Shown piece by piece: positions 9,465-60,670 of a DNA stretch of 64,000 nt; within the stretch, counting starts at the first letter, position 1, and each line of letters starts with the position of its first letter. The translations under genes and the position numbers were made by a program. The notes beneath the pieces were generated by a model, which saw only the letters and a program-made list of their open reading frames with translations, did not search any database and was not told where the DNA came from. The stretch is taken from assembly GCA_947647735.1 (NCBI GenBank), contig CANSLJ010000003.1, positions 62,001 to 126,000 on the forward strand. Direction: 5' to 3'. The stretch comes from an uncultured bacterium (GTDB taxonomy: Bacteria > Bacillota > Clostridia > Lachnospirales > Lachnospiraceae).

Positions 9465-10811
9465 ATGAAAAAGAACAAAAAGTTTTTAGCACTGGCTCTT
9501 GGCACGGTTCTTTCCCTGTCCATGCTGGCAGGCTGCGGAGGCAGCGGTGACAGCGCGGAGGCTCCGGCAGCGGAGGGCGGCGAAAGCGCAGAGGCTCCGG
9601 CAGCGGAAAACAGCGGCTCAGGTTCCGTTTACTGGCTGAACTTCAAGCCTGAATCCGATGAAGTATTACAGGATATCGCAGCAACTTATAAAGAGCAGAC
9701 CGGCGTGGATGTGAAGGTGGTTACAGCGGCTTCCGGTACATATTCCCAGACTCTGCTGTCTGAGATGGATAAATCAGCTCCCCCCACATTGTTCGTTATC
9801 GGGAACCAGGCGGGCGTAAGGGACTGGACAGACTACGCGCTGGATCTGGCAGGTACACCGATCGCAAATGAATTAAGCACAGACGCTTACAACCTCTATG
9901 ATGAGAACGGCAAGCTGGTTTCCATCGGCTACTGTTATGAGTGCTACGGCATTATCGTAAATCCCGACCTGATCGAAAAAGCAGGCCACACGATGGATGA
10001 GATCAAGAACTTTGAAGGACTGAAGGCAGTGGCAGAGGATATCCACGCTCGCGCAGGCGAACTTGGCTTTGACGCATTCTCTTCCTCCGACATGGATGAT
10101 TCCTCTTCCTGGCGTTTCACAGGACATATGGCAAACCTTGAGTATTACTACGAGCAGGAAGGCAGCACCTGGACAGAGTGCCCGGCGACGATTTCCGGCA
10201 AATACCTGGATAACTTCAAGAACCTGTATGACCTCTGCATCAACAACAGCCTGACAGACCCGAAAGAGCTGGCAACCGGCGGCCATGATGCGGAAAACGA
10301 GTTCAAGACAGGACAGGCGGCATTCTTCGTAAACGGCTCCTGGGAATATGAGGCAGTGAAGGCAGATGTACCGAATGCTACAATGATCCCTTACTACTGC
10401 GGCGTTGAAGGCGAAGAAAAAGCAGGTTTAAACTGCGGCACGGAGAACTGCTGGGCGATCAACAGCAAGGCATCCGAGGATGATCAGAAAGCAACGATGG
10501 ACTTCATGGTTTGGTGTGTAACAGATCCTGATGCTTCCCGTAAGCTGGTAGATACATTCGGCGTTATGCCTTACAAGCAGGCTGCAGAGTCCACAAACGG
10601 CTTCCTTGCGGCGGCGGATCAGTATACGGCTGACGGATGTTATGTCATGAACTGGGCAACCAACTTCCAGCCTAACGTTGATTCCTACCGTGCTACCCTG
10701 GTAAGCGCTCTGAATCAGTACAATGCGGATCAGTCCGATGCAAACTGGGAGACAGTACGCACCGCTTTTGTGGATGGCTGGGCAACAGAATACAACGCAG
10801 TAAACAATTAA
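9465..10811 (+). CDS. Maltodextrin-type ABC solute-binding lipoprotein
   Basis: 448 residues. A lipoprotein signal peptide ends in MLAGC with Cys24 as the lipidation site. Next comes an Ala/Glu-rich linker in which SAEAPAAE occurs twice, then a family-1 extracellular solute-binding fold (VYWLNFKPESDEVLQDIAATY ... FVNGSWEYEAVKADVPNATM). It should capture oligosaccharides outside the membrane and deliver them to the two permeases that follow. A maltodextrin substrate is inferred from the adjacent malQ and the LacI-type operators; another oligosaccharide is possible. Strong Shine-Dalgarno AGGAGG. Confidence 0.85.
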   Translation: MKKNKKFLALALGTVLSLSMLAGCGGSGDSAEAPAAEGGESAEAPAAENSGSGSVYWLNFKPESDEVLQDIAATYKEQTGVDVKVVTAASGTYSQTLLSEMDKSAPPTLFVIGNQAGVRDWTDYALDLAGTPIANELSTDAYNLYDENGKLVSIGYCYECYGIIVNPDLIEKAGHTMDEIKNFEGLKAVAEDIHARAGELGFDAFSSSDMDDSSSWRFTGHMANLEYYYEQEGSTWTECPATISGKYLDNFKNLYDLCINNSLTDPKELATGGHDAENEFKTGQAAFFVNGSWEYEAVKADVPNATMIPYYCGVEGEEKAGLNCGTENCWAINSKASEDDQKATMDFMVWCVTDPDASRKLVDTFGVMPYKQAAESTNGFLAAADQYTADGCYVMNWATNFQPNVDSYRATLVSALNQYNADQSDANWETVRTAFVDGWATEYNAVNN

Positions 10812-10842
10812 TATATAATATATAACGAATATGAAACAGGCG

Positions 10843-10869
10843 GCGGGGCGGGCATTTAGCCCGCCCCGT
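10843..10869 (+). other. GC-rich intercistronic hairpin
   Basis: GCGGGGCGGGC (10843-10853), loop ATTTA, and its complement 10859-10869 (the outermost pair is G-U). It lies between the binding-protein and permease genes without a U-run. Such hairpins commonly protect the upstream mRNA so that binding protein is made in excess. It also argues against the upstream ATG at 10831 as the permease start. Confidence 0.65.
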
Positions 10870-10902
10870 TCAGCGAAATATCCAAGACCGGGGGTTGGTA
10901 CC

Positions 10903-11808
10903 ATGAAGAACAAGAAAAATACCAATAGTAATTCCATCAAGAAGGCCACCAGGCGCTGGGGATTTTTATTTTTAGGCCCTGTGCTGATCGCTTTTACCAT
11001 TGGTTTTATATGGCCTTTTATTCAGGGAATATGGCTGTCTATGTGCCAGTTCCGCCTGATTTCCGACGCAAAGTTTATCGGATTTGACAACTACGTTAAG
11101 GTGTTTCAGGATGCATCTTTCCGTCATGCATTCTGGTATACAGCCATGTTCGCTATTGTATCGCTTGTCATCATCAATGTGCTGGCGTTTATGGTGGCAT
11201 ATATTTTGACATTGGAGATCAAGGGCAGCAACTTATTCCGTACCGTGTTTTTTATGCCGAACCTGATCGGCGGTATCGTGTTAGGTTATATATGGTCCAT
11301 GATCTTTGACGGCATTCTCGGCCGTTATCAGACCTCCATCCTGCTGGAGAGTAAATACGGCTTCTGGGGCCTGATCATCCTGATGTGCTGGCAGCAGATC
11401 GGTTACATGATGATCATTTATATCGCGGGACTGCAGAATGTGCCCGGGGATATTCTGGAGGCGGCCCGTATTGACGGCGCAACTTCCATGCAGACTTTAT
11501 TTAAGGTGACGATCCCCAATGTTATGAGTTCTTTTACGATATGTATGTTCCTTTCTCTGACAAACGGCTTCAAGCTCTTTGACCAGAACCTGGCACTCAC
11601 CGGAGGGCAGCCCTTCGTGATCCAGGTGGGCGGCACGACGATCAAGACGACAGAGATGCTGGCGCTCAATATTTACAATACGTTCTACAGTTCCAACACC
11701 ACATCGCAGGGCGTGGCGCAGGCAAAAGCGGTTGTTTTCTTCGTCCTGGTGGCGGGGCTCGGCCTGCTCCAGTTGGGCTATACACGTAAAAAGGAGGTAC
11801 AGCAGTGA
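10903..11808 (+). CDS. ABC sugar transporter permease (MalF/UgpA-like)
   Basis: 301 residues from the ATG at 10903; an earlier in-frame ATG (10831) is separated from the protein core by a GC hairpin and would add an unrelated tail. About six membrane helices. The cytoplasmic EAA loop reads EAARIDGATSMQTLFKVTIP, the site that docks on the ATPase. Together with the next gene it forms the transmembrane channel. No ATPase gene is present in this operon, so a shared MsmK/MsmX-type ATPase encoded elsewhere is expected. Confidence 0.88.
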   Translation: MKNKKNTNSNSIKKATRRWGFLFLGPVLIAFTIGFIWPFIQGIWLSMCQFRLISDAKFIGFDNYVKVFQDASFRHAFWYTAMFAIVSLVIINVLAFMVAYILTLEIKGSNLFRTVFFMPNLIGGIVLGYIWSMIFDGILGRYQTSILLESKYGFWGLIILMCWQQIGYMMIIYIAGLQNVPGDILEAARIDGATSMQTLFKVTIPNVMSSFTICMFLSLTNGFKLFDQNLALTGGQPFVIQVGGTTIKTTEMLALNIYNTFYSSNTTSQGVAQAKAVVFFVLVAGLGLLQLGYTRKKEVQQ

Positions 11809-12665
11809 TGAGCAAGAACACAATTTCTGCCGCAAACAGGCACAAAACGATCCTTTCTGTCATATTAGCCGTGGTCAGTATCGTCTATGTACTGCCGGTG
11901 CTGGCAGTGGTGATAAACTCTTTTAAGCAGAACACTTTTGTAAAGACCGATACTTTTGCGATTCCCACAGGGGAGATGAGCGCCGGCTTTGATAACTTTA
12001 TCAAGGGCATGACTTTCGGTAACTATCCGTTTATGAAAAGCGTGATGTACAGTGTTGTGATCACATTGCTTTCCACATTTCTGATCCTGCTCTGTACTTC
12101 TATGGCGGCGTGGTATATCGCCAGAGTGGATTCGGTTTTCTGCCGGGCGATCTACTTTCTGTGCGTGTTCTCCATGGTCGTACCGTTCCAGATGGTGATG
12201 TTCACACTGTCGAAGACGGCGGATAAGCTGCGTCTGAATACACCCTGGACGATTCCGGTCGTCTATCTGGGCTTTGGAGCCGGGCTTGCCATCTTTATGT
12301 TTGTGGGTTTTGTGAAGGCGATCCCGCTGGAGATCGAGGAGGCGGCGTCCATCGACGGCTGCGGGCCGGTGCGGACGTTCTTCACGGTGGTCGTGCCCAT
12401 GTTAAAGCCGACGATGGTTTCCGTGGGCATTCTGGAGATCATGTGGGTTTGGAATGACTATCTGCTGCCGGTGCTGGTACTTGATATCAACGAATACCGT
12501 ACGATACCGATCCATATTCAGTATCTGAAGGGAAGCTACGGTACGGTGGATCTGGGTGCCACGATGGCGCTGATCCTGATGAGTATCATTCCGGTTATCA
12601 TCTTCTATCTCGCCTGCCAGAAACATATCATCAAAGGTGTGGCAGCAGGTGCGGTGAAAGGTTAA
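11808..12665 (+). CDS. ABC sugar transporter permease (MalG-like)
   Basis: 285 residues. The ATG overlaps the upstream TGA by one base (TGATG) and has an AAGGAGGT ribosome site 9 nt before it; a GTG at 11805 is also possible. Six hydrophobic segments and an EAA loop (EIEEAASIDGCGPVRTFF). The C-terminus IIKGVAAGAVKG is typical of MalG-type permeases. It is the partner of the gene at 10903. Confidence 0.9.
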   Translation: MSKNTISAANRHKTILSVILAVVSIVYVLPVLAVVINSFKQNTFVKTDTFAIPTGEMSAGFDNFIKGMTFGNYPFMKSVMYSVVITLLSTFLILLCTSMAAWYIARVDSVFCRAIYFLCVFSMVVPFQMVMFTLSKTADKLRLNTPWTIPVVYLGFGAGLAIFMFVGFVKAIPLEIEEAASIDGCGPVRTFFTVVVPMLKPTMVSVGILEIMWVWNDYLLPVLVLDINEYRTIPIHIQYLKGSYGTVDLGATMALILMSIIPVIIFYLACQKHIIKGVAAGAVKG

Positions 12666-19984: not shown

Positions 19985-21262
19985 TCACAGGATCACTGTA
20001 AAGGTGCTCCCTCCTCCCGGCGTATCTTTCACGAGAAGCTTTCCATGATGGGCATGGACGATCTCGGCGGCGATACAGAGCCCTAAGCCGAAATGTCCTT
20101 TTTCACTGCGGGATCGGTCTGCGCGGTAAAACCGTTCAAAGATATGCTCCTTCTCGGCATCCGGGATGCCGGGACCGTTATCTTCCACTGAAATAAAAGT
20201 GTTTTTCCCGTTAAAGGTAAGCGAAAGGCGGATTTTTCCGCCGGCGGGCGTGTAGCTTACGGCGTTGTGCAGCAGAATGGAGAGAACCTGGATCATGCGT
20301 TCTTTATCACAGGAAACGGCAGGGACCGCTGTTTCCGGCAGAGTGATGGAGAGCGCAATATTTTTTTCCGCGGCAACAGGCTGAAAAGCTTCAAAAAGAT
20401 TTAAAAGCAGTGTGTCGGCCTCCGTGGGAGCAGGCTGGATAGACCAGCTTCCGCTGTCGGCGGTGGTCAGAAGGAGCATGTCATCGATTAGTTTGGACAT
20501 CCGCATGCCCTCCGACCGGATGGCGTCCAGAAAGTGTTTTCGCTCGCCGCCTGCGGCTTTGCCGGAGGCGGAGGCGCAGGAGAGGATCACGGCGAGGGGC
20601 GTGCGCAGCTCGTGGGAGGCGGAGGCGATAAACTGTATCTGTTTTTTCTGGTTTTCCTCCAGAGGCTTTAAGATCCTCTTTGTGAAATGCCATGCGAAAA
20701 AGGACAGGGCGATCACAGCGAGGATATTCAGCAGGGCGAACAGGAACCGCTGGCGGTTGATCTGTGCCTGGAGCGCATCCAGAGGCGCCAGTATGATGAT
20801 CTGGAGAGAGCCGCTGCTGCGCTGTGCCACTGCGACACAGGCATAGAATTTTCTGCCGGAATCGTCCTTCGGGGCGAAGAGAAACTCCGTGTGATAAATG
20901 TCGGAAAATACATTTGTGTAAACCGGTCCTGGGGAATTCTGCCAGAGAGCCCATGCTTCCTGAAACAGGTCTTTTTCCTCTTGAGATTCCCGCTCATTAA
21001 ACAGGAAAGGGACGCCGTTGTCCGTGATATGGATCTTGTATTTTCCGTTATCCTCCATTTTGGTGAGCCATTCGTGGGTGATCACAGTCTGGTGCTCCAG
21101 ATTGGTGATCAGGGTGTTCATATCGTTCTGAAAGGAAGAATAACTGCTGTTTTTTAATCCCTGTTCTGAAATATAGAGATAGCACAGGGACATGGTGAGC
21201 AGGATGAAGGCTGTGATGCTGCCGCAGAGAACGGCAAGGCGGAAATGTACTTTTTTAAACAT
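19985..21262 (-). CDS. Sensor histidine kinase (second two-component system)
   Basis: 425 residues from the ATG at 21262 (MFKKVHFRLAVL); an upstream extension would run into the regulator coding frame. Two membrane helices flank an extracytoplasmic domain of about 140 residues. HisKA carries SASHELRTPLAV, and HATPase_c has LLHNAVSYTPAGG, VEDNGPGIP and HFGLGLCIAAEIV. It overlaps the regulator gene by 8 nt, and both are read leftwards. The divergent lipoprotein and propeller-binding-protein operon may be its target, since operator-like repeats lie between them. Confidence 0.92.
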   Translation of the reverse strand: MFKKVHFRLAVLCGSITAFILLTMSLCYLYISEQGLKNSSYSSFQNDMNTLITNLEHQTVITHEWLTKMEDNGKYKIHITDNGVPFLFNERESQEEKDLFQEAWALWQNSPGPVYTNVFSDIYHTEFLFAPKDDSGRKFYACVAVAQRSSGSLQIIILAPLDALQAQINRQRFLFALLNILAVIALSFFAWHFTKRILKPLEENQKKQIQFIASASHELRTPLAVILSCASASGKAAGGERKHFLDAIRSEGMRMSKLIDDMLLLTTADSGSWSIQPAPTEADTLLLNLFEAFQPVAAEKNIALSITLPETAVPAVSCDKERMIQVLSILLHNAVSYTPAGGKIRLSLTFNGKNTFISVEDNGPGIPDAEKEHIFERFYRADRSRSEKGHFGLGLCIAAEIVHAHHGKLLVKDTPGGGSTFTVIL

Positions 21263-21938
21263 GGGCGGTTCCTTCCATCTGGTAGCCGACGCCCCGGATC
21301 GTGCGGATCGAAACACGGCTGCCCACAGTTTTTAAACGTCTTCGGAGAAAATGGATATAGTTATCCAGATTACCGTCCTCCACATCGCTGTCAAGCCCCC
21401 AGACTTTCGTGAGCAGCAGTGTGCGGGGGAGAGGCTGGTTCGGGCTGCGCAGGAAAACTTCGAGAAGATCGCCTTCCCGCCTGGACATACTGCAGGTTCC
21501 TTCCGCGCCGGTCAGGGTATTTTCCTCCGGGCGGTAGGTGATGTCCCCGAAAGAAAGTTCGTCTGTCAGCGTCATTTTGCGGGGGCGGCGGGTGATACAG
21601 CGTATTCTTGCCATCAGCTCTTCAAAGGCAAAGGGCTTTACCAGATAGTCGTCGGCGCCCAGATCAAGCCCTGTGACTTTATCGTCCAGCGTACCGAGGG
21701 CGGTAATTAAAATAACGGGCGTCTGGTTATTGCTCTTGCGCATTTTAGAAAGAACTTCCGTTCCGCTGAGGTAGGGAAGCATCCGGTCGAGCAGGATCAG
21801 ATCGTGGATATTCTGCTCGATATAATAGAGCGCTTCCTCGCCATCGGAACAGGTGTCTGTCAGAAAGCCTTCTTTTTCTAACTGGAAGGCAAGGGATGTT
21901 TTCAGTTTTTCGTCGTCTTCTACCAACAGGATTCTCAT
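21255..21938 (-). CDS. OmpR-family response regulator (second two-component system)
   Basis: 227 residues from ATG 21938, with AGAGGT at good spacing; longer starts are not supported. Phosphoacceptor Asp51 (LLDRMLPYLSG), conserved Lys in YLVKPFA, winged-helix C-terminus (SRREGDLLEVFL, LDNYIHFLRRRLK). Likely binds the TTAGAG-type repeats in the divergent gap and regulates itself and the gene at 22222 (inference). Confidence 0.93.
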   Translation of the reverse strand: MRILLVEDDEKLKTSLAFQLEKEGFLTDTCSDGEEALYYIEQNIHDLILLDRMLPYLSGTEVLSKMRKSNNQTPVILITALGTLDDKVTGLDLGADDYLVKPFAFEELMARIRCITRRPRKMTLTDELSFGDITYRPEENTLTGAEGTCSMSRREGDLLEVFLRSPNQPLPRTLLLTKVWGLDSDVEDGNLDNYIHFLRRRLKTVGSRVSIRTIRGVGYQMEGTAHV

Positions 21939-22036
21939 GGAAATACCTCTTTTTTTAGGATTTACGAGCTTTGCGGCAAAGTTTACTTTGCTCGCTATTT
22001 TATTCAAATATTATAGCAGAAGATCCTTTAAAATAT

Positions 22037-22121
22037 CTCTAAATTTTACGGAAATCTTTTTTAGTTGCCGTTTGAAAAATAAAAAAGTTTAGAGAAAACT
22101 TAGAGGATAGTCTGCTATGAT
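22037..22121 (+). promoter_or_regulatory. Divergent control region with TTTAGAG repeats and extended -10
   Basis: TTAGAG occurs at 22089-22094 and 22100-22105, spaced 11 bp; an inverted copy, CTCTAAA, is at 22037-22043. An extended -10, TGCTATGAT (22113-22121), follows the direct repeat by 7 nt, with no good -35, as expected for an activator-dependent promoter. It reads towards the lipoprotein gene at 22222. Confidence 0.5.
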
Positions 22122-22221: not shown

Positions 22222-22734
22222 ATGAGAAATATAAGAAAAAGATTACTTATAACAGGTGTTATCATTGTGGTGGGACTGAGCGCTGCAGGATGCGGTAAAA
22301 CGACGGAGGAGGCGCCGGATGCGGAGAATCCGGGACAGGAGGCAGGCGCCGGCGATGAAGGTCAGTCGGGGGAAGATATTTCTTCTCTGCGCTATATCCC
22401 GGAGGGAGAAGGGGATCTTCTTGGTGATATCTGTGAAGTCGGCGATATGCAGTTTACGGTGACGGAGATTTACACGGAGAACCTGGACGATGGTATGGTT
22501 ATGGCCAGCATAGCGCCGGAGGCGGAGGAGGATGCGTCAAAGATCACAGTTGTCTATGACGAGAATACAGTATTTGAGAAACAGAAGATCTGGAATGGCG
22601 GCGCAAACCATGAGGAGAAACCCGCAACGGCGGCGAATCTGCAGGAAGGATTTACGGCGGAGATGTGGGGAAGCTATGAGGGCGATGTGTTCCATGCGAC
22701 AGCGATCAAAATCGTGGAGGTTATATTGCAGTAA
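22222..22734 (+). CDS. Small lipoprotein of unknown function
   Basis: 170 residues. Signal peptide with lipobox SAAGC (Cys24), an acidic Gly/Glu linker (about 28-55), then a compact domain with QFTVTEIYTENLDDG and a conserved-looking C-terminus (EMWGSYEGDVFHATAIKIVEV), probably a small OB- or beta-barrel-like fold. No family recognised. It is first behind the putative two-component-regulated promoter and precedes the propeller-binding-protein operon by about 100 nt. Confidence 0.75.
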   Translation: MRNIRKRLLITGVIIVVGLSAAGCGKTTEEAPDAENPGQEAGAGDEGQSGEDISSLRYIPEGEGDLLGDICEVGDMQFTVTEIYTENLDDGMVMASIAPEAEEDASKITVVYDENTVFEKQKIWNGGANHEEKPATAANLQEGFTAEMWGSYEGDVFHATAIKIVEVILQ

Positions 22735-22834
22735 CAGAGAATATGCACAGAAACGAAAAGGTATAGTGTGAAAAATGAATTTTCATACGCGAATTTGTGC
22801 CTGCGGCCCAAAGTTCGCAGGCTGTGGAAAGGGC

Positions 22835-25351
22835 ATGGATATTAATATGAAAAAATTCAAAAAATGGACGGCGTTATCCTGTGTCGGAGCGATGGCGGTA
22901 TCGCTCCTTGCAGGCTGCGGCGGGAAGGATAACGCGAATGAACTGACCATACCGGAGGCGAAAAAGGAAAACACATCGAAAACGGAGGCAGATAATGCGG
23001 AAAAGAGTATGGGGCGTTATCTGGAAAGTGAGATCACGGTGCCGGAGGAGGTGAGCGTTATGAGCAATTATCCTCTTGCCTATCTGCAAATGATGGAGGA
23101 CGGCGCTCTGGAGATCGCGGAGTCGGCGGCGGGGAAGTATATTTCAGCGGATAACGGGGAGAGCTGGGAGTATGCGCAGTGCCCCTGGAAAGATATTCTC
23201 TATCATGCTTCCATTATGGATATCGCGTTCTCTCCGGACGGGGCGGCGGCGCTGATCTATATGCCCCATATAGACGAGGAAGACGGAGCGGAGGAAACGG
23301 GTTCCGGGCAGGAAGCGGATCAGGAGGATAGTTCGGTAGAGGGCCAAGCGGCGGAGGATTCCGCAAAGAAAGATGACGGATCCGGGGAAGATTCTGCGGC
23401 AGAGGATGAGAGCGGTGTGGAGATCGGATCGGTGTCAGATCTGGCGGATCTGGTATATAAGTATATCTATTATGATGCGGATCAAAATGCGACAGAACTG
23501 GATCTGGAGCAGGAGGTCGGGGAAGGATGCCGAAAGTTCGCCTTTGACAGACAGAGCAGGCTCTATGCGTGCATGGGCGACGGGAAGGTTTACCGGATAG
23601 ATCCGGCGGACGGTTCCCGGAAGGAATTGTTCGAGGTGGAAGGGGTTCTTGATTTTATCTGTTTTACGGAAAGGTATATGATCGGGTTCAGCACCAGAAG
23701 TGAGGTTGTGATCTACGATCTGGAAAATGAGATACCGGCGGAGAAGGATAAGGTGCTGGAGGATTTTATCAGCGAAAATCTGGGACTTTCCATCGGTAGT
23801 ATCGACAGGGGGCACAGCATTATCGCGACAGCAGGGGAGCAGGCGGACGTCATCTATTTTGCTTTTGATGGCGGGCTCTACCGGCATGTGATCGGCGGGA
23901 CGGCGATCGAGCAGGTTATCGACGGGGCAACGTCCTCCCTCGGTGATCCCAGTATGACGCTGATGGATATGGTGATGCTGCCGGACAATGAATTTGCGGT
24001 ACTCTACACCGATGCGAAGCTGTATCGGTATACCTATGATCCGAATGTGCCGACGGTGCCGGAGGAGCAGATCAGGGTGTACAGTCTTGTGGAAAACTAT
24101 TCCATGCGTCAGGCGGTGAGCCTGTTTCAGAAAGCCCGTCAGGATGTGTATGTCCGATACGAAGTCGGGATGTCCGGCGAGGACGGCGTGACAAGAGAGG
24201 ATGCGATACGGAACCTGAATACAAAGATCATGTCGGGGGAGGGACCGGATATCCTGCTCCTTGACGGACTGCCGCAGGCTTCCTACGAGGAGAAGGGTAT
24301 CCTGGCGGATATGAGCGGGGTGATCGATTCCCTGAGCAGCGAGGATGCGCTGTTTCCGAACATTGTGGAGGCGTGCCGGAAGGACGGAAAGATCTATACG
24401 CTGCCGATCCGGATACAGCTTCCGATGATGGCGGGCTCTAAGGAGTATGTGCAGAGCATAAGGGATATGGAGACGCTGGCGGATGCTGTGGAGGCGATGC
24501 GGGAGGAAAACCCGGAAGGGGCGATCCTTGGGCCAAAATCCGAGGAACAACTCTTGTATGTGCTTGGGCTTACCTGTTCGGCGGCGTGGACTGACGATGA
24601 GGGAAACATTGATGAGGAGGCTCTGGAGGAGTTCCTTACGGCGGCGACGCGGATCTGGCAGGCTGAGGCTGCCGGGCTGGATGCGGACTGGCTGCTGGAG
24701 GAGCGCAGCTACAGTGAGTATTTTTCCGGGGAAGGCAGGTATTATGCGACGCTCTCCAGCATGGCGATGGATATTGCGATGAAGGAGACACAGTTTGCGA
24801 TTGGGAAGGTCTACCGGGTGGATTTTGATTATGCGACATTGACCTCTCTGGCAGAGCTGATCGGCGGGGAGTTTGATATCGCGTCGTGGAACGGCCAGGT
24901 GAGCGGCGGGTTTATTCCGGACGGCCTGGCGGGTGTCTGTGCAAATTCCGCAGATCGTGAGACGGTGGTGGAATTTTACAGATTTTTATATGGAAGGGAG
25001 CTTCAGGATATGGATCTCTCCGGCGGGCTGCCCGTGAATATGGCTTCCTTTGATACCTTCCGGGAAAACCCGAGGGCAGGCGTCGTGGAGGGAGACGACG
25101 ATATTTCCGGCGGGATCGGGATATCCAACGAGTCAGGGGATTATTTCAGTCTGGATATCAGGTGGCCGAAGGAGGCGGAATTCCAGAAGCTGAGAGAGAT
25201 GGTGGAATCCGCTTCCCGGATCAGCACCGGGGATGCCACGATAGAGCAGGCTGTCTATGAGATCGGGCCGCAGGCACTGAAAGGAAATATGACGCCGGAG
25301 CAGGCAGTAAAGGAGATCGTGAAGAAGTCAGCGATCTATCTGGCGGAGTAA
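22835..25351 (+). CDS. Propeller-like plus family-1 solute-binding lipoprotein, copy 1
   Basis: 838 residues from ATG 22835 (22847 and 22775 are alternatives). Lipobox LLAGC with Cys28. Residues from about 50 to 420 look like a beta-propeller: an Asp-box SADNGESW and repeated blade-like strands (KVYRIDPADGSRKELF, VIYFAFDGGLYRHVIGG). An acidic insert of about 60 residues lies near residue 160. The second half starts at QIRVYSLVENYSMRQAV and resembles family-1 solute-binding proteins (NLNTKIMSGEGPDILLLDG). It is closely related to the next protein over its whole length. The binding half should serve the permeases at 27651 and 28667; the ligand is unknown. Confidence 0.85.
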   Translation: MDINMKKFKKWTALSCVGAMAVSLLAGCGGKDNANELTIPEAKKENTSKTEADNAEKSMGRYLESEITVPEEVSVMSNYPLAYLQMMEDGALEIAESAAGKYISADNGESWEYAQCPWKDILYHASIMDIAFSPDGAAALIYMPHIDEEDGAEETGSGQEADQEDSSVEGQAAEDSAKKDDGSGEDSAAEDESGVEIGSVSDLADLVYKYIYYDADQNATELDLEQEVGEGCRKFAFDRQSRLYACMGDGKVYRIDPADGSRKELFEVEGVLDFICFTERYMIGFSTRSEVVIYDLENEIPAEKDKVLEDFISENLGLSIGSIDRGHSIIATAGEQADVIYFAFDGGLYRHVIGGTAIEQVIDGATSSLGDPSMTLMDMVMLPDNEFAVLYTDAKLYRYTYDPNVPTVPEEQIRVYSLVENYSMRQAVSLFQKARQDVYVRYEVGMSGEDGVTREDAIRNLNTKIMSGEGPDILLLDGLPQASYEEKGILADMSGVIDSLSSEDALFPNIVEACRKDGKIYTLPIRIQLPMMAGSKEYVQSIRDMETLADAVEAMREENPEGAILGPKSEEQLLYVLGLTCSAAWTDDEGNIDEEALEEFLTAATRIWQAEAAGLDADWLLEERSYSEYFSGEGRYYATLSSMAMDIAMKETQFAIGKVYRVDFDYATLTSLAELIGGEFDIASWNGQVSGGFIPDGLAGVCANSADRETVVEFYRFLYGRELQDMDLSGGLPVNMASFDTFRENPRAGVVEGDDDISGGIGISNESGDYFSLDIRWPKEAEFQKLREMVESASRISTGDATIEQAVYEIGPQALKGNMTPEQAVKEIVKKSAIYLAE

Positions 25352-25372
25352 GAAATATGGGGAGATATGAAA

Positions 25373-27703
25373 ATGTATTATAATAGAAGGAAACAAAGAA
25401 AAATAGCATGCGTTATGATACTTTTAAGTCTGTTACTTTTGGCAGGCTGTGGAAATACAGAGGAGAAAAAGGGCGGGGAGAATGCGGAAGAGGGCACAAA
25501 TGCGGGCGGTATGGGCAGGTATGTGGAGGATATCAGGGAATTTCCGGAAGAGATCAACCGAAACGGCGGGCTGAATATGCTGGAGGACGGTTCCATGACG
25601 ATCATCAGCTATAACAGCGGGCTGTACCGATCCGTGGATCAGGGGGCAAGCTGGCAGCAGGAGGAGACGGCGTTTTTCCCGATGATGCAGGGGGTATACG
25701 CGCTCTCGGCGGTGATGGCGCCGGACGGAACGGCTGCGGTCTCCTGCTCGGGGGAGATGCCGCAGGCGGCGAGGGAGATGCTCTCTTCGCCGCTGCCGGA
25801 CGACTGGAGCGGAAATTATTGTATCTTTGCTTTTCCCGACGGGGACATAAAGGTGGTGGATTTCGGATTTTCGCAGGAGGACGGGAGCTGTATCAGTTCC
25901 TTTGTCTTTAAGGAGGATGGCAGGCTGTTCGCCGGGGATATGAGCGGCAGGATCTACGAGGTGGATATGGAGCATGAGAGCCTGAAGGAGCTTTTTGTGA
26001 TGAACCGGGAGGCGGGGTATATCAGCTTTTGCGGCGATATCCTGATGGCGGCGGGAGCGGATAAGCTGTATCTGTATGACCTGGATAAGCGGGAGATGCT
26101 GGCGCAGGATACGGTGGCGGATGCCTTTTTGAAGAGTGCGCTGGCGGACGGGACGGTGCGTTATACCGGAGGCGGTTATCCGCTGGCGGTGTTCGGCGGG
26201 GAGGAGGAGATCATCTATATCGCCTGTGTGGACGGACTGTACCGGCATGTGCTGGGAGGCAGTACGATGGAGCAGATCATTGACGGGGCGCTCAGTACCT
26301 TCGGGGATGGTGTCTCCATTTACAGCGCGAGGGCGCTGGAAGATCAGGAGTTTCTCGTGCAGTTTAGTCCTTCCGGCGGCCTGGTGCGCTATCGTTTTGA
26401 CGAGTCGGTGCCTTCCATGCCGGATCAGGAGATACGGATCTATTCGCTGGAGGAGAACAGCAGTGTCCGGCAGGCGGTGACCGCCTATAAAAAGGTGAAA
26501 ACTGACATGTACGTCAGATATGAGGTAGGGATGAAAGGCGAGGACGGCATAACAGCGGAGGACGCCGTAAAGCGGCTGAATACACAGATCTTATCCGGCG
26601 AGGGGCCGGATGTGATCATACTGGACGGCCTGCCGATGGATTCCTATGTGGAAAAGGGAACGCTGGCGGATCTGAGCGGTATGATGGCGGAACTGGAAGA
26701 GGAGGGCGCGTTGTTTTCCAATCTGACGGAAGGGTTCAGACAGGAGGATGGGAATATCTATGCGGCACCGCTCTGCATCCGGGTGCCTGTGCTGGCGGGG
26801 GAGAGTGATGTGCTGGAGCGCATAGAGGATCTGGAGAGCTTTGCCGGGGAGATGGAGGCGCTTCGAGCGGAATATCCCGGGGGAGGACTGCTGGGGATCT
26901 ATGACGCGGAGGCAATGCTGAGGCTTTTCGGTATGGTTTCTTCTCCCGCATGGACAGATGAGTCAGGGCAGATCGACCGGGAGGCGGTAAAGGACTTTTT
27001 GACACAGACGGACCGCATCTATAAGGCAGAGCTTTCGGGGGCATTGCCGGAGGAAGTGGAGAGAATGGAAAAGATCGATGAAGAATTGCAGCAGTACGGC
27101 GCAGATCCGGTGGAAAATAAAATGGAAGCCTGCCAGAATGTGCTGGATATCAGATGCGGCTATGCAAGGCTTGCCTGCGGATACCTGGATGGCATCCAGC
27201 TCTGTCTGGATAATGTGACGACTGTTATCGGACTGGAAAATAACATGCGTTATCAAATTTTCCCGGGACAGATGCAGGATGTATATCTGCCGAGGACGAT
27301 GGTGGGCATCAGTGCGGAATCGACACAGAGGGAAGCTGCGGAGGAATTTGTGAGATCCATGTTTTCCCTGGAGGTACAGTGGGATATCTGGGAAGGTTTT
27401 CCGGTGAATCAGGCGGCTTTTGCGGAGAAATTTGACCTGCTCGGGGCAGGGGAGGAAAACGGCAGTATGACGATGGTGAAAAACGACGGTTCGGAGGAGG
27501 AGCTGGTACTTCACTGGCCGGACGAGGCGCAGGAGGAGGAGTTTACAGAGCTGGTGCAGGGATTGAAAGTGCCGGCGGCGGGAAATGAATGGCTGAAGGA
27601 ACTGGTGTATGAGACGGGCGTGAAGGTGCTGGAGGACGAGGTAAGTGTGGATGAAGCTGTCGAGGAGATCGCGAAGAAAGCGACAATTTATCTGGCGGAG
27701 TGA
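25373..27703 (+). CDS. Propeller-like plus family-1 solute-binding lipoprotein, copy 2
   Basis: 776 residues from ATG 25373, which has GGGGAG at 8 nt (25367 is also possible). Lipobox LLAGC. Same two-part build as its neighbour: Asp-box SVDQGASW (nt 25631-25654), the paired motif DGLYRHVLGGSTMEQIIDGA, then the binding-protein half from IRIYSLEENSSVRQAV. Both copies end in almost identical C-termini (AVEEIAKKATIYLAE here). It lacks the long acidic insert of copy 1. Two such proteins in tandem suggest diverged ligand ranges on one channel, or one sensing copy. Its last 53 nt overlap the permease gene. Confidence 0.85.
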   Translation: MYYNRRKQRKIACVMILLSLLLLAGCGNTEEKKGGENAEEGTNAGGMGRYVEDIREFPEEINRNGGLNMLEDGSMTIISYNSGLYRSVDQGASWQQEETAFFPMMQGVYALSAVMAPDGTAAVSCSGEMPQAAREMLSSPLPDDWSGNYCIFAFPDGDIKVVDFGFSQEDGSCISSFVFKEDGRLFAGDMSGRIYEVDMEHESLKELFVMNREAGYISFCGDILMAAGADKLYLYDLDKREMLAQDTVADAFLKSALADGTVRYTGGGYPLAVFGGEEEIIYIACVDGLYRHVLGGSTMEQIIDGALSTFGDGVSIYSARALEDQEFLVQFSPSGGLVRYRFDESVPSMPDQEIRIYSLEENSSVRQAVTAYKKVKTDMYVRYEVGMKGEDGITAEDAVKRLNTQILSGEGPDVIILDGLPMDSYVEKGTLADLSGMMAELEEEGALFSNLTEGFRQEDGNIYAAPLCIRVPVLAGESDVLERIEDLESFAGEMEALRAEYPGGGLLGIYDAEAMLRLFGMVSSPAWTDESGQIDREAVKDFLTQTDRIYKAELSGALPEEVERMEKIDEELQQYGADPVENKMEACQNVLDIRCGYARLACGYLDGIQLCLDNVTTVIGLENNMRYQIFPGQMQDVYLPRTMVGISAESTQREAAEEFVRSMFSLEVQWDIWEGFPVNQAAFAEKFDLLGAGEENGSMTMVKNDGSEEELVLHWPDEAQEEEFTELVQGLKVPAAGNEWLKELVYETGVKVLEDEVSVDEAVEEIAKKATIYLAE

Positions 27704-28544
27704 GAACAGGGAAAGCCATGCATGGGCCGCCTTTCTGCTACCCAGCTTTCTCGGTGTGACAGTGTTTGTGTTGATCCCCTTTCTGGATGTGGTGAGGCGT
27801 TCCTTTGTGACGGCGGTGACGCAGGAGTGGTCGGGGATCAATAACTACCGCAATGTATTTAGTAATCAGGCTTTCCGCCTTGCCATACATAATACGGTGC
27901 GCTTCACGGCGGTGTGCCTGCCGCTTTTGATCGGGCTGGGGCTTTTTCTGGCTCTCTGGCTCAGCAGGTTAAAGCAGATACAGCTGATCAAGTCCCTCTT
28001 TCTGTTTCCGCTGGCGATGCCCGCGGCTACGGTGGTGCTGATCTGGAAGATGGTGTTTTCAAGGCAGGGATTTCTGGACGGCCTTCTGATCGGGCTGGGA
28101 ATCCTGCCGGAGGGGACGCTGTTTGATTTCATGGGAACAGGGGCGTCCTTCTGGGTGCTGGTGTTCAGCTATGTGTGGAAGAATCTGGGCTACACGATGG
28201 TGCTCTGGCTGGCGGGGATCTTCGCCGTGCCGGGGGATATGTGCGAGGCGGCGAGAGTGGACGGGGCGAGTGAGGGGCAGGTTTTCCGCAAGGTGATCTT
28301 TCCGAATCTGAAAAGTTCCCTCTACACGATCACGGTGCTGTCCTTTTTAAATTCCTTTAAGGTGTTCCGGGAGGCATATCTGGTGGCGGGGTCCTATCCC
28401 CATGAGGATATGTATCTGCTGCAGCATCTGTTCAACAACTGGTTTGTCAATCTGGAGCTGGATAAGATGGCTGCTGCCGCGGTGTGCGTGGGGACGGTGT
28501 TGTTTCTGATCATTCTGCTGTTGCAGAGATTGTGGAAGGCATGA
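27651..28544 (+). CDS. ABC transporter permease (MalF/UgpA-like), start inside the upstream gene
   Basis: 297 residues from ATG 27651, 53 nt inside the binding-protein gene. This start gives the usual basic leader (MKLSRRSRRKRQF) before the first helix and has GAGG about 10 nt upstream; no ATG follows before the first helix. Six hydrophobic segments. EAA loop: CEAARVDGASEGQVFRKVIFP. It pairs with the next gene; no ATPase is encoded nearby. Confidence 0.85.
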   Translation: MKLSRRSRRKRQFIWRSENRESHAWAAFLLPSFLGVTVFVLIPFLDVVRRSFVTAVTQEWSGINNYRNVFSNQAFRLAIHNTVRFTAVCLPLLIGLGLFLALWLSRLKQIQLIKSLFLFPLAMPAATVVLIWKMVFSRQGFLDGLLIGLGILPEGTLFDFMGTGASFWVLVFSYVWKNLGYTMVLWLAGIFAVPGDMCEAARVDGASEGQVFRKVIFPNLKSSLYTITVLSFLNSFKVFREAYLVAGSYPHEDMYLLQHLFNNWFVNLELDKMAAAAVCVGTVLFLIILLLQRLWKA

Positions 28545-28666
28545 GGCCCTCAAGGATAAAATGTCGGGAATGGAGCAGGAATCTTAAGGCGGGAAGAGTA
28601 TCTGATACAGCAGTGAAGATATGGCTGAGAAAATCAAAAAATCTGCAGGGGAGAAGAGATGATTTG

Positions 28667-29518
28667 ATGAGAAAAAAATTACAGAGAGCTATAGTAAAAA
28701 TGATCTTACTGGCGATGGGCTGTTTGTTTTGTGCGCCGGTACTGTTTCTGCTCAGCGGTTCGATCATGAGCAGATACGAGCTGACGCAGAGCCTCCTGCC
28801 CATGGTGGCGGATCAGGAGAAGCTGATCACATGGGTATTTTTTCCGAGGTATCCGACTTTTGAGCACTATGCGCGCATCCTGTTTCAAACGCCCCAGTTT
28901 TTTGTGGTTTTCTGGAATTCCATGAAGATGGTATGTCTGATACTGGCGGGACAGTTTTTTATCGCGGTGCCGGCGGCGTGGGCTTTTGCGGTCTACTCCT
29001 TCCGGGGAAGAAAATTTTTGTTTACTTTATACATCGTACTAATGCTGATGCCCTTTCAGGTGACGATGCTTTCCAGCTATCTGGTGCTGAATCGCCTTCA
29101 GCTTTTGAATACCCACGGGGCGATCATTCTGCCGGCGGTATTTTCGGCGTTTCCGGTGTTTCTGATCTATCGGGATTTCTGCAATCTGCCGAAGGGGCTG
29201 ATCGAGGCGGCGAGGATAGACGGAGCCGGGGAGTGGATGATCTTCCGGAAGATCGGGCTGCCCCTTGCATCCGGCGGTATTTTATCGGCGGGGGTGCTGG
29301 GCTTTCTGGAATACTGGAGCCTGATCGAGCAGCCGATGGCGTTTCTGGAGGATCAGACGCTGTGGCCGCTGTCTTTGTATCTGCCGGAGATCGGGATCGA
29401 GCAGGCGGGGTATTCCTTTGTGGCGGCGGTGATCACGCTGATCCCGGCGGTGTTTGTGTTCCTTGCGGGACGGGAATATTTAGAGCAGGGTATCACGGCG
29501 TCGGCGGTCAAAGGTTAG
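28667..29518 (+). CDS. ABC transporter permease (MalG-like)
   Basis: 283 residues from ATG 28667, giving the normal family length. A coupled ATG at 28541, overlapping the upstream TGA, would add 42 basic residues and cannot be excluded. Six membrane helices, EAA loop IEAARIDGAGEWMIFRKIGLP, C-terminus ASAVKG. A 13-codon frame at 28621-28662 lies in the gap but has no support as a gene. The stop codon is the first base pair region of a 17-bp stem. Confidence 0.87.
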   Translation: MRKKLQRAIVKMILLAMGCLFCAPVLFLLSGSIMSRYELTQSLLPMVADQEKLITWVFFPRYPTFEHYARILFQTPQFFVVFWNSMKMVCLILAGQFFIAVPAAWAFAVYSFRGRKFLFTLYIVLMLMPFQVTMLSSYLVLNRLQLLNTHGAIILPAVFSAFPVFLIYRDFCNLPKGLIEAARIDGAGEWMIFRKIGLPLASGGILSAGVLGFLEYWSLIEQPMAFLEDQTLWPLSLYLPEIGIEQAGYSFVAAVITLIPAVFVFLAGREYLEQGITASAVKG

Positions 29519-29613
29519 TGTGAGAAAAGTCTGCTGTGCAGACTTTTCTCACACAAGAGAATGCCTGAAATACGGCATTCTCCGCACAGGTTTGAAATTC
29601 CGCAAAGCGGAAT
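29518..29613 (+). other. Three consecutive stem-loops between permease and adaptor genes
   Basis: Hairpin 1: 29518-29534 pairs perfectly with 29538-29554 (17 bp, loop TGT, core AAAAGTCTGC). Hairpin 2: GAGAATGCC (29557-29565) with GGCATTCTC (29574-29582). Hairpin 3: ATTCCGC (29597-29603) with GCGGAAT (29607-29613), loop AAA. None has a following U-run, so a conventional terminator is doubtful; partial termination or mRNA stabilisation are the options. Confidence 0.6.
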
Positions 29614-29649
29614 CATGGCGATTAGGGTAGGAAAAGAGGTTTCGTTTCT

Positions 29650-31332
29650 ATGGAAATTTTAAAAAAACAGAAAAAAGTATTGACCATATTCGGTATTTTT
29701 CTCGCCTTCATGTTCGTCTGCACGCTGGTCTCCAGAGCGGTTTATGCGTCGAAACTTCCACAGGTCAGCGTGGCAACGCCGGGGCGTATGGCGATCGGGC
29801 ATAAAGTGGATGCGGAGGGGATCGTACATCAGGGACGGGAGTATGCGGTGAATGTGCTCTCCGGGCTGCGGGTGCGGACGGTCTATGCCCATATAGGCGA
29901 TAAGGTGACGACGGAGACGCTGCTTTTTGAGATCGATATGGAGGATCTGGAAAAACAGGTGCGGGAGAAGGAACTTGCCATCAAAAAGCTGCAGCTTCAG
30001 ATAGCGGATCAGGAGAAGAACCGGGCGCTGCAGGATCAGAAGGATGAACTGGAGAATATCAGGGCGCAGGAGGATTATGAGACGACAGCACAGGAGGAGC
30101 AGGTAAAAACTGACCGTGCGGAGCTGGAAAAAAAGCTGGCGGAGCGGGATCTGAAGGAACTGAAGGATAACCCGGTGCGGGTGACGCCGGAGGCGGAGAG
30201 AAAGGCAGCACAGCAAAGGTATGAGGAGTGGGCGAAGGAGGCGGAGAGGCTTAAAGGTGTCATGGAGCAGGCGAAACAGAAGCTGGAGGAAGCGGAGGAG
30301 CGTGTGAAGGAACTGGAGGGCGCTGCATCAGGGGCGGCTGTGCAGACAGGAACAGAAGATGGGCAAAATGCATCGGATGCTTTGACAGCTGCGGATCTGG
30401 AAGCGGCGAAAAAAGCACAGGCAGAGGCGCAGGATGCTTATGAGAAAGCGAAAGAAGTTTACGATGCGTATATGAAAACACCTGTCACGAAACCCGATTA
30501 CAGCGCTGAGGATGCGGCACGCTCCGCCTGGGAAAAGGAAAAACGCGCACTGGAGGATGCGGCAAACGCGGCGGCGCTGGCGGAGATGGATGCGAAGGCG
30601 GCACAGGAGAAAGCGATGGAGGAGGCAGGGCGAAAACTGGAGGATGCAGAGGAAGAAGGGCTTTCCGACAGTTCTCCGGAAATGAACCGTCTGGAACTGG
30701 CATCTCTGCAGGAGGAACTTTCCGCTTATAAAAAAGTACTGGAGGCGCAGGGACAGGTGTTTCCGGAGGCGGACGGTATTGTCACAAAGATTCAGGTAAA
30801 TCCGGGCGAGCGGGTGCCGGACGGGGCGGCGGTGGTCTATGCGGATCTGTCGAGCCCCATGCAGTTTTCCGTTTCCCTCACAAAGGAGCAGAAAAAATAT
30901 GTGAATCAGGGGGATGTGGCAAGATTATCTCTGGGAAGAGAAAAGGGGAAGGAATATCAGGTGGATTATATCGCGGAGAATGAGGCGAATCCGGAACTTT
31001 ATGAAGCCCGTATCCTTCTGGAAGAAGGCGTGGGAACGATCGGGCAGAGCGGAACCTTTGAGGTGGATGCCCAGTCGGAAACCTATTCCTGTTGTATTCC
31101 GATCGCCGCTCTGCGGGAGGACGCCAACCACCGGAAGTTTGTCTATATCGTCAGTGAAAGATCCGGTATTCTCGGGAAGGAGCTGGCGGCGGAGGCGGTC
31201 TACGTGAAAGTGCTGGATCAGAATGATTCCTATGTGGCGATCGAGGAGGGCGTGATCGACTCGGAGACGGAACTGATCACGGATTCCACGGAGGCGATCG
31301 AGGACAGGGCAGTGGTGCGGTATAAAGAATAA
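29650..31332 (+). CDS. HlyD/AcrA-like membrane fusion (adaptor) protein
   Basis: 560 residues. One N-terminal membrane helix (about 11-30), a short barrel-sandwich first half (GREYAVNVLSGLRVRTVYAHIGDKV), a long coiled coil from about 95 to 365 rich in Glu, Lys and Ala with a Gly/Ser/Thr break near 225, and the second half of the lipoyl/barrel region (GIVTKIQVNPGERVPDGAAVV). The usual partner, an ABC exporter with MacB-type permease, is absent nearby, and it sits behind the propeller-binding-protein operon. It may serve an exporter elsewhere, or scaffold the lipoproteins (speculative). Confidence 0.82.
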   Translation: MEILKKQKKVLTIFGIFLAFMFVCTLVSRAVYASKLPQVSVATPGRMAIGHKVDAEGIVHQGREYAVNVLSGLRVRTVYAHIGDKVTTETLLFEIDMEDLEKQVREKELAIKKLQLQIADQEKNRALQDQKDELENIRAQEDYETTAQEEQVKTDRAELEKKLAERDLKELKDNPVRVTPEAERKAAQQRYEEWAKEAERLKGVMEQAKQKLEEAEERVKELEGAASGAAVQTGTEDGQNASDALTAADLEAAKKAQAEAQDAYEKAKEVYDAYMKTPVTKPDYSAEDAARSAWEKEKRALEDAANAAALAEMDAKAAQEKAMEEAGRKLEDAEEEGLSDSSPEMNRLELASLQEELSAYKKVLEAQGQVFPEADGIVTKIQVNPGERVPDGAAVVYADLSSPMQFSVSLTKEQKKYVNQGDVARLSLGREKGKEYQVDYIAENEANPELYEARILLEEGVGTIGQSGTFEVDAQSETYSCCIPIAALREDANHRKFVYIVSERSGILGKELAAEAVYVKVLDQNDSYVAIEEGVIDSETELITDSTEAIEDRAVVRYKE

Positions 31333-59134: not shown

Positions 59135-60670
59135 ATGAAAACAATCAGTAAAGAGTACGCAGTGCAGATGCACGGTATTACAAAAAAATTCGGAACCTTC
59201 TGTGCACTGAAAAATGTGGAATTGAATGTGAGGGCAGGAACGATACATTCTCTGCTGGGAGAAAACGGCGCAGGAAAGAGTACCTTGATGAATGTATTAT
59301 ATGGACTGTATCAGGCCGATGAAGGGGAAATTTATTTGAACGGGGAAAAGGTAAAAATAAAGTCTCCGAGTGATGCGATCGATCTGGGGATTGGTATGGT
59401 ACATCAGCATTTTATGCTGGTCGAGCGTTTTACGGTTTTGCAGAATATCATTCTGGGGGAGGAAAAATTATCCCGCACCGGAATACTGGATATGAAGAAA
59501 GCAAAAAGGGAAGTGGAAGAAATTGCGGAGCGATACGGGCTTTCCATTGATCTGGATGCAAAAATATGCGACATTACAGTGGGAATGCAGCAGAGGGTTG
59601 AGATCATAAAAGCGTTATACAGAGGTGCTAATCTGTTGATACTGGATGAGCCTACGGCGGTGCTGACGCCTCAGGAGATTCAGGAGCTGATCAAGATCAT
59701 GAAAAATCTGGTGGAATCCGGGAAATCTATTATCATCATTACCCACAAGCTGAAGGAGATCAAGGCGGCATCGGATATCTGTACGGTGATCTGCAGAGGA
59801 AGATATATTGATACAGTAAAGGTGAAAGATGTGAATGAAAACCAGCTTGCGGCTCTGATGGTAGGCCATGATGTAAAACTGGTGGTGGAAAAGGAGAAGG
59901 CAGAGCCGGGAGAGGCGGTTCTGGAGGTAGAAGATCTGGTGGTGGACAATGAACGCGGGATAGAGGCGGTGAAAGGACTCAATCTGCAGGTGCGCCGGGG
60001 AGAGATTGTAGGAATAGCAGGGATCGACGGAAACGGCCAGAAGGAGTTCATCGAGGCACTCAGCGGTTTTATAAAAGCCAGATCGGGCGTGATCCGGATG
60101 AACGGCAGAGAGATTCAGAATACAGTGCCTGAAACTGTTCTGGAAAGTGGCATCAGCATTATCCCCGAGGATCGGCATAAAAGAGGGCTGGTTCTGGAGT
60201 TCAGTGTAATAGAGAATGCGGTACTGAACAAATACCGGAAAGAGCCGTTTTCCAACAGGGGATTTCTGAAAAAGGCGGAGATGGAAAAATTTGCCGCCGG
60301 ACTGATCGAAGAGTGTGATGTCAGGCCCGCGGACTGTGCCATGACACAGGCTGGAAATCTTTCCGGGGGAAATCAGCAGAAATTGATCATCGGCCGTGAA
60401 GTCAGCAATGATCCGGATTTGCTTGTGGCGGTGCAGCCAACAAGAGGCCTGGACGTGGGAGCGATCGAGTCGGTACATAAAACATTGATCAGAGAGAGGG
60501 ATAAAGGAAAGGCAATCCTGCTCGTATCCTTTGAACTGGATGAGATCATGAATGTTTCTGACACCATTGCTGTGATCTATGACGGGAAGATACAGGCAGT
60601 TTATGAGCAGGGAACGGTGGATGAAAATGAGCTGGGATTGATAATGGCAGGAGGAAAACAGCATGAATAA
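59135..60670 (+). CDS. Nucleoside ABC transporter ATPase (NupA/RbsA-like, two NBDs)
   Basis: 511 residues with two fused nucleotide-binding domains. First: Walker A GENGAGKST, signature region TVGMQQRVEIIKAL, Walker B LLILDEPTAVLTPQE. Second: degenerate Walker A GIDGNGQKE, signature LSGGNQQKLIIGRE, LLVAVQPTRGLDVGA. This asymmetry is normal for the RbsA/XylG/NupA class. It powers uptake through the two permeases. It overlaps the next gene by 8 nt. Confidence 0.94.
   Translation: MKTISKEYAVQMHGITKKFGTFCALKNVELNVRAGTIHSLLGENGAGKSTLMNVLYGLYQADEGEIYLNGEKVKIKSPSDAIDLGIGMVHQHFMLVERFTVLQNIILGEEKLSRTGILDMKKAKREVEEIAERYGLSIDLDAKICDITVGMQQRVEIIKALYRGANLLILDEPTAVLTPQEIQELIKIMKNLVESGKSIIIITHKLKEIKAASDICTVICRGRYIDTVKVKDVNENQLAALMVGHDVKLVVEKEKAEPGEAVLEVEDLVVDNERGIEAVKGLNLQVRRGEIVGIAGIDGNGQKEFIEALSGFIKARSGVIRMNGREIQNTVPETVLESGISIIPEDRHKRGLVLEFSVIENAVLNKYRKEPFSNRGFLKKAEMEKFAAGLIEECDVRPADCAMTQAGNLSGGNQQKLIIGREVSNDPDLLVAVQPTRGLDVGAIESVHKTLIRERDKGKAILLVSFELDEIMNVSDTIAVIYDGKIQAVYEQGTVDENELGLIMAGGKQHE

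Follow-up and report, generated by a model that had tools for sequence, protein, structure and literature searches.

Adaptors of the HlyD/MacA class are membrane fusion proteins known from export, for example from drug exporters. An operon that joins such an adaptor to importer-type permeases, and that is conserved in some gut bacteria, is described here from an uncultured bacterium of the Lachnospiraceae. The window analysed is a stretch of 64,000 nucleotides (assembly GCA_947647735.1, contig CANSLJ010000003.1, positions 62,001 to 126,000 of the forward strand), taken from a genome of 4.1 Mb that is 86.55% complete. The operon occupies positions 22222-31332 of the window on the plus strand and encodes a 170-residue lipoprotein, two long lipoproteins that fuse a propeller-like half to a solute-binding half, MalF/MalG-type permeases and a 560-residue adaptor; two-component genes lie divergently upstream on the minus strand. 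As computed, the system is marked by this gene content and domain make-up, by the linkage of its genes, by a separate MalG group, by a conserved box shared between the two divergent promoters and by the absence of a MalK-type ATPase from the locus. We give about an even chance to the proposal that it is a ligand-sensing uptake module that regulates itself and uses the adaptor as a scaffold in the envelope. The operon offers a concrete system in which to ask whether adaptors of this class take part in uptake or sensing in bacteria that have no outer membrane.

Among described systems, CUT1 importers (MalEFGK-type) resemble the operon in their type-1 solute-binding domain, in MalF and MalG with EAA loops, and in that the ATPase gene can lie elsewhere, as in transporter B of Clostridium thermocellum (excerpts of PMC9601137). 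The operon differs from them in its binding proteins, which number one to three per locus and begin with a propeller-like half, in its additional adaptor, frequent MacB-core-like protein and OmpR-type two-component system, to which a box of its own belongs, and in its MalG, which forms a separate group. Among solved structures, the closest to the solute-binding half is CbpC, of C. thermocellum transporter C; unlike the fusions, its chain of 438 residues matches only from profile position 397 onward and hence lacks a propeller half. An adaptor gene, acrA, is listed among the transporter clusters in the legend to Fig. 1 of PMC9601137; we infer that it may belong with the transporter C/CbpC operon (Cthe_2125-2128), one gene of which goes unnamed in the excerpts.

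The MacA-MacB and YknX-YknZ systems are similar in that the adaptor resembles MacA and that a partner protein, encoded at the corresponding loci of other genera, has a MacB/YknZ-like periplasmic core. They differ in that the partner has no match beyond the core and no ATPase domain, and is tied to importer-type permeases. Finally, in the CuaD-CuaS-CuaR system the gene for a solute-binding protein likewise adjoins a two-component pair, and the binding protein takes part in signalling; neither a propeller nor an adaptor is mentioned in the abstract of PMC10384115. By analogy, that system may serve as a precedent for sensing via a binding protein. Among the matches listed, no title or abstract of an open-licence paper was found to describe the present system, a weak negative as most subscription papers fall outside that set.

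The adaptor gene is located at 29650..31332 (+), and its product has one N-terminal hydrophobic segment and a long coiled coil. Alone, it gives weak matches below cut-off to HlyD_3 (E 0.023) and RND_mfp (9.7e-12). As a profile of 11 sequences, it matches solved adaptors, both MacA and RND-type, with E-values down to 1.8e-23, and it aligns with the MacA of its own genome over 476 columns. It shows the traits of HlyD/MacA proteins: an N-terminal membrane segment, lipoyl-like halves around the coiled coil and a match to the family profile.

To place this gene in context, fusion proteins and their neighbourhoods were collected from related genomes. Of 299 genomes sampled from the family, 53 proved to carry the fusion when searched with a full-length profile (E no higher than 1e-60); with the N-terminal profile, it was found in 17/295 genomes of the order and 2/398 of the phylum, counts that include the window's own genome and may contain misses, as few candidates were scored per genome. 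The list of 89 fusion proteins excludes L010 and L042 as incomplete, and 74 of the 89 were aligned, those omitted being mostly near-duplicates from the window's genus and four paralogs in L140-L142. Neighbourhoods were examined at 74 loci, one of them the window. For 59 of these the sequence extends at least 5.5 kb beyond the fusion gene on the downstream side; 50 of the 59 have MalF, 49 have MalG, 49 the adaptor and 34 a MacB-core-like gene, and for the 54 loci outside the window's genus the counts are 45, 44, 44 and 34. Fusion length, gene order and linkage are repeated in other genera. With the fusion found in 53/299 family genomes, its ligand may be widespread in the habitats of these bacteria. 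Five loci of the window's genus (L037-L041) have three fusion paralogs, compared with two in the window, and three of the five have two small lipoproteins.

The adaptor is present in 49 of the 50 permease-bearing loci of this first set, window included. In a second set, drawn from the samples beyond the family, it occurs in 9/12 loci, or in 9/10 of those with permeases and enough sequence; L215 is cut by a contig end, and L218, a contig of 4.6 kb, has neither permeases nor adaptor. Controls were drawn from ordinary CUT1 MalG loci: none of 28 loci in relatives carried the adaptor (those returned for 41 genomes, with flanks of at most 1.5 kb, L199 being cut by its contig), nor did any of 13 in the window's own genome, 10 kb each, among the matches listed. 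The same profile detects an ordinary MacA at 1.7e-25, a positive control for these negatives. In 51 of 56 pairs no more than 100 bases separate MalG from the adaptor; gaps and overlaps, here and below, rest on mechanically assigned frames. This linkage, set against the ordinary CUT1 controls, leads us to reject a chance neighbour; the adaptor is a genuine member of the operon. The first-pass annotation, whose open reading frames, lipobox-like starts and Asp-boxes in 22222-31332 are borne out, was right to place the adaptor in the operon; the refuting outcome it had named, an adaptor gene that is never linked in homologous operons, is not what the loci show. Its description of the adaptor as an orphan is not supported: of 44 loci in other genera that have the adaptor, 34 encode a MacB-core-like membrane protein after it, and none was found in the other 10.

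The two fusion genes lie at 22775..25351 (+) and 25367..27703 (+). Lipoprotein 1 starts at 22775 (858 residues) or at an ATG at 22835 (838 residues), and lipoprotein 2 has 778 residues, or 776 from the next ATG. Both begin with lipobox-like sequences, and the Asp-boxes SADNGESW and SVDQGASW can be read directly. In lipoprotein 2 the propeller-like half covers approximately residues 50-353 and the solute-binding half approximately residues 354-778. When 13 full-length fusions were used as a profile, the N-terminal part matched WD40 proteins and the C-terminal part matched CbpC (7x0o, E 4.1e-27). A second profile was built from 68 of the 74 aligned N-terminal halves, the six that are long or incomplete being omitted. 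It matches solved propellers of the WD40 (2ymu, 3e-17) and PQQ (3hxj, 1.1e-16) types and PkwA (1.4e-12), these being whole-sequence E-values summed over repeats; the 3.6e-21 obtained with designed propellers is inflated by the designs' own repeats.

Aligned to itself, the N-terminal profile matches again when shifted by about 51 columns (E 4.4e-7). The solute-binding half, put through the same self-alignment, shows no such repeat (best E 0.12), and neither do five column-shuffled N-terminal profiles (best E 0.83). The spacing suggests about six blades. A strict Asp-box occurs in 36 of the 68 halves, against a mean of 2.25 and a maximum of 8 over 200 shuffles. Two results weigh against a propeller: the window's own N-terminal half returns nothing from Pfam at E 0.1, and single members match propeller families only weakly (BNR 10/68, PQQ_2 9/68). 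As judged from profiles, and structure aside, the assignment of the N-terminal half as a beta-propeller is well supported; the fusion of propeller and solute-binding domains, proposed at first reading, is upheld by the profile matches and by internal repeats of about 51 residues that the controls lack. A further feature of the alignment is that the column of the window protein's last residue (27692-27700) holds Glu in 74/74 fusions. It is the final residue in 63/74, mostly as YLAE or YLSE, and CbpC likewise ends in Glu.

The C-terminal halves of both fusions score above the Pfam cut-off for SBP_bac_8 or SBP_bac_1, type-1 solute-binding domains. Tryptophan makes up 0.65% of this half in the 74 proteins versus 1.84% in six ordinary relatives, a small comparison.

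Both permeases, MalF (27645..28544, +; true start uncertain) and MalG (28667..29518, +; frame open from 28484), match BPD_transp_1 and retain intact EAA loops. In a FastTree phylogeny rooted at its midpoint, with a long-branch warning among the ordinary rows, a single branch with support 99 separates 68 operon MalG sequences from 44 ordinary ones. No MalK-type ATPase was found in the window's operon, and to that extent the first-pass annotation's claim that no ATPase is local holds. In a motif scan, 14 of 86 loci had frames resembling ABC ATPases, but no such frame was a repeated part of the operon; the scan is not exhaustive, and it overlooks an ABC ATPase at window position 59135. One MalK-like frame, so called by its length and start, lies 1.4 kb from the fusion gene in L145. 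The window's own genome has one OB_MalK match, a separate gene (L148:9439-10548, on G000:C19) whose product is a candidate for the shared energiser of this genome's CUT1 importers. This gene stands away from transporter genes, beside one that is CdaR-like by eye. By analogy, a good precedent for an ATPase encoded elsewhere may be seen in C. thermocellum transporter B, which is served by an ATPase encoded outside its cluster (excerpts of PMC9601137).

The divergent genes encode a sensor histidine kinase (19985..21316, -), with two hydrophobic segments, an extracellular part of about 145 residues and HisKA and HATPase domains, and an OmpR/PhoB-type response regulator (21255..22007, -), with a likely start near 21938, roughly where the frames of relatives begin. 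The extracellular part of the kinase has no solved relative at E 1. Upstream sequence of 3 kb or more is available for 68 loci, and 55 of these have a kinase and regulator pair of this kind. Between the pair and the operon, the intergenic region in the window's genus has a box in each direction, TTTAGAG-N5-TTARAG, followed after seven bases by the extended -10 element TGnTATRAT. In the window, the box toward the regulator genes (TTTAGAG-N5-TTAAAG, with the extended -10 TGCTATAAT) is at 22010..22043 (-), and the box toward the operon (TTTAGAG-N5-TTAGAG, with the extended -10 TGCTATGAT) is at 22088..22121 (+). This conserved direct-repeat box ahead of an extended -10 element at both divergent promoters is new here. 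An 11-base direct repeat in that position is the expected target of an OmpR-type regulator.

The box occurs twice in the window, both times in the divergent region, versus 0.10 occurrences expected. A scan of the window's genome for the box with its -10 element, allowing at most 3 mismatches over 21 fixed bases, returned the two sites of the divergent region, which had supplied the pattern itself, and one elsewhere with 3 mismatches. Of 45 divergent intergenic regions found, L131 was dropped as too short; the 44 kept include 6 from the window's genus, in which the box was first seen. In the 38 others, with at most 2 mismatches, it was found toward the operon in 30, toward the regulator in 25 and on at least one strand in 36; with the window's genus the counts are 36/44, 31/44 and 42/44, and a dinucleotide-shuffle control gave 28/880 and 12/880. 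Because the box is conserved on at least one strand in 36/38 regions from other genera and almost confined to this one spot in the genome, the kinase and regulator pair looks dedicated. The pair probably regulates itself and this operon, with the boxes as putative regulator sites; the control by the adjacent two-component system that had been suggested earlier is supported in this form. A solute-binding gene beside kinase and regulator genes under a shared box constitutes a three-component-type arrangement.

In the mechanism we propose, the two surface lipoproteins, each with its propeller and solute-binding halves, would capture a ligand and hand it over to the dedicated MalF/MalG-type permeases. 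The permease would be powered by an ATPase encoded elsewhere, probably a separate-gene MalK-type one. The membrane-anchored adaptor, in most loci of other genera together with the MacB-core-like protein, would place the binding proteins around the permease, with no export channel formed. The divergent kinase would sense the ligand, perhaps via a binding protein, and the OmpR-type regulator would bind the TTTAGAG direct repeats at both promoters, activating its own expression and the operon but hardly any other genes.

Several results weigh against this proposal. Permeases were not found in 9 of the 59 loci, and L132 and L223 have permeases without an adaptor. The scaffold cannot strictly need the MacB-core-like partner, which is absent from the window's genus. 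With the genome at its present completeness, the count of OB_MalK genes is perhaps too low. No kinase and regulator pair of this kind scored above threshold in 13 of the 68 loci, L048 and L097 being among those with a different pair. The test for the box is not clean, as a control with the reversed pattern was also raised (10/44 and 19/44); this pattern is not an independent control, because the content of the box is 11-base periodic. As for the ligand, the tested sugars were not bound by CbpC, the pocket of which is blocked, according to excerpts of PMC9601137, which also mention an earlier study in which CbpC did bind; CbpC is still handled as a glucose binder in excerpts of PMC8303734.

The strongest competitor holds that the locus is a sensor first: the fusions, permease and adaptor would act together as a receptor complex through which the kinase learns of the ligand or of the state of the envelope, with little net uptake. 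It can be likened to flux-sensing modules, and it gains from boxes that are conserved and almost restricted to the locus, from the failure of CbpC to bind tested sugars and from the normal growth of a transporter C mutant on glucose, cellobiose and Avicel (excerpts of PMC9601137). Four of the nine loci without permeases (L095, L102, L103 and L135) keep two-component genes beside the fusion gene and are possible stand-alone sensors. These four come from three genomes, two of which also carry the full operon (L096, L104). A pure sensor, however, would need neither the EAA loops, which are kept, nor the permeases, which are found in 50/59 loci, and we consider this reading doubtful.

The first ten MacB-core-like partner proteins examined have 334-443 residues. 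Their periplasmic core resembles that of MacB/YknZ; a hydrophobic segment usually stands at the N terminus, between one and four more follow on a simple scale, and there is a WSDFxFW-like motif. Of six partners scanned, two exceed the Pfam cut-off for MacB_PCD, and in the others the match is weaker or absent. The partner aligns with the MacB of the window's genome over the periplasmic core only, and the best solved match of its profile is the YknZ core (3.9e-6), solved matches being confined to the core. It has no ATPase domain, and a MacAB/Ykn-type permease with FtsX part and ATPase was not encountered in the operon. Over 39 pairs, the median overlap between adaptor and partner genes is 4 bases, which makes translational coupling of the two probable. 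At loci of the window's genus no partner gene was found, and the window's own genome gave just a weak match (6.5e-5) on G000:C22, in the ordinary MacAB set. That set, an ordinary ATPase-MacA-MacB arrangement at L149:4289-8129 (G000:C22), was the reference against which the adaptor and its MacB-core-like partner were compared.

An importer of tripartite style is one way to combine these parts: an oligomer of the adaptor, resting either on the MacB-core-like protein or directly on MalFG, would cross the cell wall of a single-membrane bacterium as a tube or cage, hold the propeller-binding lipoproteins and channel the ligand inward, while the kinase reads the ligand load. We think this arrangement unlikely. 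Export or detoxification, in which adaptor and partner belong to an efflux machine with a borrowed ATPase and the importer genes merely lie next to it under common regulation, we hold to be quite unlikely. The profile matches of the adaptor to MacA and RND-type adaptors and of the partner to the YknZ periplasmic core speak for it, and the genome also holds the complete ATPase-MacA-MacB set; yet the partner's matches stop at the core, leaving the permease part missing, no ABC-ATPase frame recurs in the operon in the non-exhaustive scan, the partner is absent from the window's genus, and the presence of the adaptor follows that of the permeases. That the operon is an ordinary CUT1 sugar importer, as its typical CUT1 Pfam matches might imply, with adaptor and propeller as accidental or minor decorations, is very unlikely, being disfavoured by the adaptor linkage (0/41 ordinary loci, the own-genome part among the matches listed), by the separate grouping of the operon MalG and by the occurrence of the fusion in 53/299 sampled family genomes.

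The first gene of the operon encodes the small lipoprotein (22222..22734, +), of unassigned family. Scans with Pfam and NCBIfam gave no match at E 1; strong relatives occur in the window's genus and weaker ones in L093, L105 and L115. Elsewhere in the window, 9465-12665 holds an ordinary CUT1-type operon, with a binding protein of 448 residues, MalF and MalG, without an adaptor and followed by a gene that is LacI-like by eye. A consensus scan for terminators and promoters gave counts no higher than in shuffles. Between malG and the adaptor gene, at 29518-29613, lie three consecutive palindromes; the predicted RNA fold of 29505-29660 has an energy of -59.4 kcal/mol (z -6.4). Part of this hairpin region recurs at 85% in the same genome (C27:25981-26053). 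It looks like a small mobile or repetitive extragenic palindrome (REP)-like hairpin element, and its hairpins may influence expression of the adaptor gene.

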